Part shown: piece by piece, positions 1-49,030 of the stretch
Numbering within the stretch: the stretch's first letter is position 1
How the letters are laid out: the number at the start of each line of letters is the position of its first letter
DNA from: Sipunculus nudus
Lineage: Eukaryota; Annelida; Sipuncula; Golfingiida; Sipunculidae
Direction: 5' to 3'
DNA: 64,000 nucleotides
NCBI GenBank assembly: GCA_026874595.1
Contig: CM049309.1
Location: forward strand, 94,262,723 to 94,326,722
The notes under the pieces: model-generated
The model's input: only the letters and a program-made list of their open reading frames with translations
The model's database searches: none
What the model was told of the DNA's origin: nothing
Position numbers and translations under genes: made by a program

Positions 1-606
1 AAGAAGAGAGACGCTGTTCTGATCCTGCCATTTGTATGTATAGTACAGGGGCAGGTAGGTCCGTAAGAAGAGAGACACTGTTCTGATCCTGCCATTTGTA
101 TGTATAGTACAGGGGCAGGTAGGTCCGTAAGAAGAGAGACGCTGTTCTGATCCTGCCATTTGTATGTATAGTACAGGGGCAGGTAGGTCCGTAAGAAGAG
201 AGACGCTGCTCTGATCCTGCCATTTGTATGTATAGTACAGGGGCAGGTAGGTCCGTAAGAAGAGAGACACTGTTCTGATCCTGCCATTTGTATGTATAGT
301 ACAGGGGCAGGTAGGTCCGTAAGATGAGAGACGCTGTTCTGATCCTGCCATTTGTATGTATAGTACAGGAGAAGGTAGGTCCGTAAGAAGAGAGACGCTG
401 TTCTGATCCTGCCATTTGTATGTATAGTACAGGGGCAGGTAGGTCCGTAAGAAGAGAGACGCTGTTCTGATCCTGCCATTTGTATGTATAGTACAGGGGC
501 AGGTAGGTCCGTAAGAAGAGAGACGCTGTTCTGATCCTGCCATTTGTATCTATAGTACAGGGGAAGGTAGGTCCGTAAGAAGAGAGACCCTGTTCAGGTT
601 CTGCTG
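1..606 (+). repeat. 64-bp tandem array carrying a HELQ exon 3' end and splice donor
   Basis: Nine full 64-bp units (starts 1, 65, 129, 193, 257, 321, 385, 449, 513) and a partial unit from 577. In one frame the first 54 bases of each unit read 18 codons containing VLILPFVCIVQ, which matches helicase motif Ia of the HELQ family, followed directly by a donor-like GTAGGT and then an in-frame TAA. The next exon in the window (2449) begins in the phase needed to follow this donor. The array therefore looks like repeated copies of an exon end plus donor. The complete exon must begin left of the window. Confidence 0.85.
321..374 (+). CDS. HELQ: Candidate genuine end of the upstream HELQ exon (array unit 6)
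   Basis: Unit 6 differs from its neighbours: the last codons before GTAGGT read VQEK, whereas most units read VQGQ. VQEK is what HELQ orthologues have at this place (family knowledge). It may be the functional exon end or simply a unit retaining the ancestral sequence. No longer open reading frame precedes it, so the full exon is not here. Unit 9 (513-576) is the other outlier and reads VSIVQGK. Confidence 0.35.
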
Positions 607-767
607 TTTGTCATTATTTATCATATTCCTTAATATAACCTGCTTACATTGAATTTGGAGTCATTTTGATTTTGGCTGTGCCGATACGTTGCCGTGACAA
701 TGCAGATCCTAAGCCTTGGTGAAGATTCGTATGATAGAGTTCATAATACATGTTGTCAGAACAATGA

Positions 768-48622: not shown

Positions 48623-49030
48623 CAGATTACACCATCAGCCACCAGAAGTCAAGGTCACATATTTTACGAGTGGTCAACTAAGTGCCTCCCTCTGTCTGCA
48701 CCTCATAGTCAGGAAGAGCTTTGAAATATTACACCAACATCTGCCAGAAGTCAAGGTCACAGATTTTACGGGTGGTCAACTAACTGCCATCCCTCTGTCT
48801 CCACCTCATAGTCAGGAAGAGCTTTGAAATATTACACCATCATCCGCCAGAAGTCAAGGTCACAGATTTTACGGGTGGTCAACTAACTGCCATCCCTCTG
48901 CCTGCACCTCATAGTCAGGAAGAGCTTTGACAGATTACACCATCATCCGCCAGAAGTCAAGGTCACAGATTTTACGGATGGTCAGCTGTCTCTCTGTCTG
49001 CACCTCATAGTCAGGAAGAGCTGTGAAGGC
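48568..49030 (+). repeat. ~102-bp tandem repeat of the HELQ C-terminal codons, stop and 3'UTR start
   Basis: Five units begin near 48568, 48672, 48774, 48877 and 48979 with GGTCAACTAACTGCCATC. All contain CATAGTCAGGAAGAGCT(T/G)TGA and, except the last, CCAGAAGTCAAGGTCACAGA. The first unit encodes the protein's end; the rest lie in the 3'UTR, each with its own in-frame-like TGA. Confidence 0.92.

Follow-up and report, generated by a model that had tools for sequence, protein, structure and literature searches.

Tandemly duplicated intron–exon boundaries have been described in lancelets under the name of 'mirages'. According to a paper on lancelet globins, they were reported earlier in Adh3 and other lancelet loci; PMC3902484 adds PGBD5 and cites troponin C. 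The mirage loci named in these sources are thus Adh3, troponin C, the globins BflGb6 and BflGb9, and PGBD5. The globin paper states that the Adh3 data and its own RT-PCR suggest that regular splicing is undisturbed. In BflGb6, the copies are homogenised within the cluster, with the terminal copy left out. The globin paper calls the origin and mechanism of mirages unclear, and proposes the repeats as raw material for intron gain. PMC3087553 and PMC2206037 are also among the sources used.

Exon-boundary repeats in print are not confined to lancelets, because PMC2812944 mentions human ones. It deals with variable internal tandem repeats (VITRs) in human genes within segmental duplications; some of these lie at an exon–intron boundary and may give rise to novel introns. 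Among the titles and abstract starts listed in the literature search, none pointed to exon-edge repeats beyond lancelets. Judged likewise by titles and abstract starts, no annelid case described as exon-edge repeats was found. In earthworm metallothionein genes (PMC12783039), introns contain minisatellites, and one locus carries exon 4 in two additional copies, neither of which is represented in the transcript.

This report examines a series of tandem arrays in and around the introns of one HELQ gene. The initial annotation of the locus knew of no described process that produces such a pattern; this does not hold, since lancelet mirages are the same arrangement.

The HELQ gene

The window, i.e. 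the whole stretch of 64,000 nt that was analysed, contains the 3′ part of HELQ on the + strand. Exons were sought by tblastn, using a human HELQ sequence as the probe. The matches follow one another in order along the window, and fifteen exons (B to P) were modelled. Joined at canonical splice sites, these give a single open frame that ends with a TGA at 48620–48622. The GC content is 49% in exons and 38% in the window. Exons C, I, L, M, N and P of the present model correspond to B, H, K, L, M and O in the initial annotation. All exons listed below derive from tblastn and open-frame joining.

2449–2649, + strand: exon B
3236–3311, + strand: exon C (initially B)
8942–9039, + strand: exon D
9380–9487, + strand: exon E
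9714–9859, + strand: exon F
10506–10745, + strand: exon G
11554–11695, + strand: exon H
13537–13641, + strand: exon I (initially H)
17488–17707, + strand: exon J
24204–24361, + strand: exon K
32649–32747, + strand: exon L (initially K)
37297–37470, + strand: exon M (initially L)
41681–41794, + strand: exon N (initially M)
47312–47446, + strand: exon O
48461–48622, + strand: exon P (last exon, initially O), coding part including the stop codon

Two database searches were made with the encoded protein, and in neither do the 120 top-listed proteins exceed 63% identity. In a tree of 27 proteins (696 columns; a sampling that lacks brachiopods, phoronids and some other spiralians), the gene of the window groups with Capitella, Lamellibrachia and two further sequences, with a bootstrap of 100 and an SH-aLRT value of 97. 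Forced placements with Branchiostoma, deuterostomes and molluscs are all rejected (AU p 0.006, 0.009 and 0.024, respectively). An earlier tree of 29 rows agrees, rejecting the Branchiostoma and deuterostome placements (AU p 0.002 and 0.015). A lancelet gene was considered and rejected; identity to the listed Branchiostoma records is 54–59%, and both trees exclude this position (AU p 0.002 and 0.006). From these comparisons we conclude that the HELQ gene of the window is probably that of an annelid or close kin.

HELQ itself is reported to prevent tandem duplications in C. elegans (PMC8654963). The gene that is full of tandem duplications is therefore itself a reported suppressor of them; nothing ties the role in C. 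elegans to the arrays, and the concurrence is probably a coincidence.

Arrays carrying an exon edge

Arrays were detected by TRF, by blastn of exons with their flanks against the window, and by alignment to cyclic units. The three approaches agree, and the exon-edge repeats first noticed by eye in HELQ are real. Seven local arrays have an exon edge in their unit, which measures 57–124 bp; the edge is a donor in A and N, an acceptor in I, L, M and P, and the stop codon in P103.

1–617, + strand: array A, 64-bp unit; end of the motif Ia exon (KRDAVLILPFVCIVQG) and donor GTAGGT; 9 full copies
11982–13541, + strand: array I, 63-bp unit; carries the acceptor of exon I and 5 bases of the exon; AG in 15 of 25 rows (authentic site included)
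27041–32694, + strand: array L, 124-bp unit; exon L acceptor and 46 exon bases; 46 acceptors (authentic site included), all AG
36877–37346, + strand: array M, 111-bp unit; carries the acceptor of exon M and 50 bases of the exon; acceptor missing from the outermost copy
41786–43379, + strand: array N, 77-bp unit; last 9 bases of exon N and donor; 21 donors/rows, authentic site included
47818–48474, + strand: array P, 57-bp unit; end of the intron and first 14 bases of exon P; 12 rows
48547–49026, + strand: array P103, 103-bp unit; end of the coding sequence, stop codon and start of the 3′ UTR; about 4.7 copies

The unit sizes first given by eye stand at 64, 63, 124, 111 and 57 bp; for the other two, the TRF consensus is 77 and 103 bp, not 76 and 102 bp. 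For array A, the authentic exon edge lies off the window to the left, and the case rests on a protein match. In all six edge arrays that have their authentic edge in the window, an intact exon is found at one array end.

The exon share of the unit is about 51 bases in A, 46 in L and 50 in M; it is 5 in I, 9 in N and 14 in P. Decayed copies also exist for the end of exon C:

3332–3372, + strand: decayed copy of the end of exon C, 57 bp downstream, donor GT present
7839–7895 (approximate), + strand: second decayed copy of the exon C end, GT lost (blastn, local alignment)

Their local alignment scores are 27 and 34, compared with a best score of 16.5 in 30 shuffles. The exon parts of A, L and M, as well as the exon C copies, encode HELQ residues that match other animals. 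In these instances the exon was therefore the source of the repeated sequence.

Compared with the lancelet repeats, the unit spans an exon–intron boundary in six arrays (A, I, L, M, N and P); P103 is not counted here, as it spans a stop codon and not a splice boundary. The units are of minisatellite size, 57–124 bp against 10–160 bp in the lancelet cases compared. Copy numbers that differ between haplotypes and somatic instability also count among the criteria for mirages.

Other repeats in and after the gene

Among the further local arrays detected by TRF, the following carry no exon edge:

11032–11280, + strand: 36-bp array, intronic
11717–11981, + strand: 19-bp array, no edge in the unit, starting 22 bp past the exon H donor
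33132–36835, + strand: 38-bp array, intronic, adjoining array M (also unit alignment)

The 3.7-kb array of 38-bp units stops about 40 bp short of array M, where one more incomplete 38-bp unit abuts exon M sequence. The two arrays may have been brought together by a deletion that removed the first acceptor copy. Upstream of array L, the flank (27010–27045) reads ACTTGTATGTACAGTG and is followed by the first exon copy; about 12 bases are common to the unit. Here too, the acceptor of the outermost copy may have been lost by deletion.

A dispersed repeat family with a tandem organisation of about 167/341 bp occupies introns at 4024–6658, 15857–17155, 24962–25806 and 26393–26810 (TRF). This family differs from the exon-edge arrays and was classed as mobile or satellite DNA. 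No TRF array scoring above 100 was found in the 15 kb past the gene (49030–64000), compared with more than 10 in the 49 kb of HELQ. This downstream part contains a PF14529 endonuclease/reverse transcriptase fragment (59982–60338) and a weak helicase fragment below the cut-off (59446–59715), which are likely transposon remains.

Splice signals in the copies

Many, but not all, of the copies retain the splice dinucleotide. GT is kept in 9/9 copies of A and 20/20 of N, and AG in 45/45 copies of L, 3/3 of M and 14/24 array copies of I. Sites were scored with a small position matrix built from the 14 donors and 15 acceptors of HELQ itself. On this scale, 43/45 copies in L and 2/3 in M equal or exceed the authentic site, and the nine donors of array A outscore all 14 authentic donors. 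Scores fall below that of the authentic site in 17/20 copies of N, 10/11 of P and 18/24 of I. None of the array N copies has a T at position +6, which the authentic donor has. In array P, the copies have AG, with the pyrimidine tract replaced (CTGGAG versus TTTCAG in the authentic site).

Selection for decoy splice sites was raised in the initial annotation as one explanation of the arrays; the copies might equally be retained as backups. The complete retention of GT or AG in A, L, M and N and the high scores in L and M are compatible with such a role; the inferior scores in N, P and I, the loss of AG from 10/24 copies of I, and the existence of a stop-codon array without any splice site all count against it. 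Arrays L, M, P, I and N were included in a test for premature stops, with array A left out, and all 93 extra sites examined (45 in L, 3 in M, 11 in P, 14 in I and 20 in N) would lead to a premature in-frame stop if used. A benefit of the copies as decoys is therefore unlikely on the evidence of the reading frame, and selection of this kind is a very improbable cause of the arrays. For the same reason, since each examined copy would introduce an in-frame stop, the cell must presumably pick the authentic edge reliably.

Exon edges and chance

Whether exon edges are over-represented depends on what is counted. A count by bases shows no excess: 31% of the stretch lies in local arrays, and so do 6 of its 30 edges. 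A good local copy (score of at least 20) was found for 59% of 300 random intron points, for 20% of 300 points outside arrays, and for 6/30 edges. Once exon C and the six edges that lie in arrays are set aside, the 23 others among the 30 edges score 10.3–16.5, near the median of 13.5 for intron points off the arrays.

Counted per array, the result is different. Local arrays were collapsed to one unit each, and seeds of the same lengths were dropped randomly on the collapsed gene of 34.3 kb; seeds that landed within an exon or covered two edges were excluded as not tolerated. Array A, with its authentic edge unseen, did not enter this test. Six of the 11 local arrays straddle an edge, compared with 0.64 expected (P about 1e-5, 200,000 trials). 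When the two-copy array is dropped, 6/10 straddle an edge, a number reached in 0 of 40,000 trials; dropping the stop array as well leaves 5/9 (P 5e-5). Addition of five arrays of the dispersed family or of uncertain family gives 6/16, with a mean of 1.2 expected (P 6e-4). The array ends tell a similar story: 6 of 22 fall in exons, which constitute 4.5% of the stretch (P 3e-4). The two kinds of count disagree, and both are relevant. Exon edges are thus not unusually repetitive in themselves; it is the existing arrays that are anchored on edges unusually often.

The claim that repeats repeatedly seeded on exon edges is thus borne out per array, where edges are hit far more often than by randomly dropped seeds. 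Every P value given here weighs less than its size suggests, because the window was picked by eye and not at random; the scope is one gene, singled out by a reader who was struck by the pattern.

These counts bear on the null explanation offered with the original observation, a repeat-prone genome without preference for edges. Duplications would then occur everywhere, and HELQ would have been noticed as several happened to fall on edges. The per-base figures agree with this, both in array coverage and in the frequency of good local copies at intron points, as does the choice of the window by eye. The null has been weakened for HELQ by the per-array excess, which persists in the reduced and extended sets (5/9 and 6/16 as well as 6/11). 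A repeat-prone genome alone is an unlikely explanation, albeit one to be taken seriously.

Independence and evolution of the arrays

The arrays appear as separate local events, as had been supposed, their units differing in length and sequence. In 45 pairwise comparisons of unit consensus sequences, one pair (I63–N77; arrays at 11982–13541 and 41786–43379) exceeded all of its shuffles, weakly. This similarity is gapped and extends over more than one unit, and lies above 500 shuffles; it hints at either chance or a distant common origin. The spread of one satellite was considered and rejected, as unit lengths and sequences differ and no other pair stood above its shuffles.

Array N contains an internal block duplication of 378 bp, in which 341/378 positions are the same (ungapped count), and array L has recurring variant units. 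Both are signs of unequal exchange. Identities of the authentic copy to array copies, and among array copies, are 0.871 and 0.940 in L, 0.820 and 0.905 in P, and 0.889 and 0.911 in N. The authentic copy is thus more distant, clearly in L and P and slightly in N; this is not seen in I, M and P103, and A was outside the comparison. The pattern in L and P is the one expected if the terminal copy takes no part in homogenisation.

Arrays L, M and P begin with a partial unit. An origin by templated insertion was considered, L and M starting with exon sequence, and was dropped; the outer flanks fit a later loss at the outer end of the array.

An artefact of assembly might also produce arrays of this kind. 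Assembly is difficult for long arrays, which here reach 5.6 kb; copy numbers may be off, and array N includes a nearly identical block. The error would have to arise in seven arrays with differing units, and the copies within them have diverged (identity 0.78–0.94 in the six arrays compared), unlike collapsed or stuttered reads. It is a most improbable source of the pattern.

Mode of origin

The reading that we favour, with a probability of roughly 75%, is that the HELQ arrays are minisatellites of the mirage type: independent tandem duplications that crossed exon edges, were tolerated, and were then expanded by unequal exchange. Each array would have begun as one short tandem duplication across an exon edge. 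A whole exon would be kept in each case, by the downstream copy for an acceptor, the upstream copy for a donor and the first copy for the stop codon. With the coding sequence untouched and the extra edge placed in an intron or the 3′ UTR, selection would tolerate the duplication, since the copy adjoining the remainder of the exon is complete; the change would be neutral to the protein, provided that the additional edge is passed over in splicing. A duplication lying within a coding exon, by contrast, would in many cases disrupt the reading frame and be eliminated. Later growth would have occurred by unequal exchange, of which the block duplications may be traces. Slippage, end joining and template switching are candidate DNA-level processes for the initial duplications.

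Tolerance alone is insufficient to account for the edge excess, because intronic duplications are tolerated too. The excess suggests that duplications favour exons or their surroundings over deep intron, and the simplest addition is that they would start near exons more often. The odds that such an edge bias is real beyond HELQ are about even. The array at the stop codon, which has no splice site, fits the rule that duplications are tolerated wherever the coding frame is spared, and so speaks against a cause in splicing itself.

This last point bears on a further alternative, in which exon edges would be duplicated by a mechanism linked to transcription or splicing, such as R-loops, a stalled polymerase or copying from pre-mRNA. 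It would account for the per-array edge excess and for donors and acceptors both being affected; it is at odds with the stop/3′ UTR array, which is not at a splice site, and with the units at splice edges, all of which carry intron sequence, leaving no trace of spliced RNA. Overall, such a process is improbable.

Several observations count against the favoured account of tolerated and expanded edge duplications. There is no enrichment per base, and the case needs each array to be one event; exclusion of the terminal copy is slight in N and fails in the remaining arrays I, M and P103; and the partial first units of L, M and P need later losses at the outer end. A broader proposal can be formulated, namely that, in lineages as distant as annelids and lancelets, tandem duplications arise preferentially at exon edges through a shared DNA-level process that supplies spare splice sites for new introns. 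It is speculative and rather unlikely to be correct.

A dense set of such arrays in an annelid means that mirages are not tied to cephalochordates. The HELQ arrays offer a natural test of whether tandem duplications favour exon edges, and of how a splice site is chosen among up to 46 similar acceptors, with every examined alternative breaking the protein. They are relevant, too, to models in which tandem duplication gives rise to introns.

Comparison with known systems

The closest counterparts are the lancelet mirages. These have units of minisatellite length over an intron–exon boundary, at both 5′ and 3′ edges; many copies have AG or GT, and the real edge is intact. HELQ differs in that the case is from an annelid, with seven edge arrays within part of one gene, including one array with 46 acceptors and one at the stop codon. 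For the lancelet globins, 3–6 repeat units or a single duplicate are described. Lancelet mirages have been examined for length variation and RNA according to those sources, whereas the HELQ arrays are known from one sequence alone.

The human VITRs (PMC2812944) are similar in being minisatellites that alter gene structure, some of them at an exon–intron boundary. They differ in their mean unit of 30 bp and four repeats, and in being primate-specific; they have mostly been studied inside exons, which they lengthen or in which they become introns. The earthworm metallothionein genes (PMC12783039) share annelid intron minisatellites and extra exon 4 copies absent from the mRNA. In the part of that paper available, these are not described as exon-edge repeats; one exon copy is inverted, and the minisatellites are found in intron 1, with a mean monomer of about 180 bp. 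The earthworm case may be related to the HELQ arrays.

Finally, intron gain by tandem duplication (the Rogers model, and Drosophila cases in PMC2891723) likewise involves duplicated segments with splice signals. There, a proto-splice site is duplicated inside coding sequence and gives a new intron; the HELQ copies, in contrast, sit inside existing introns or the 3′ UTR.
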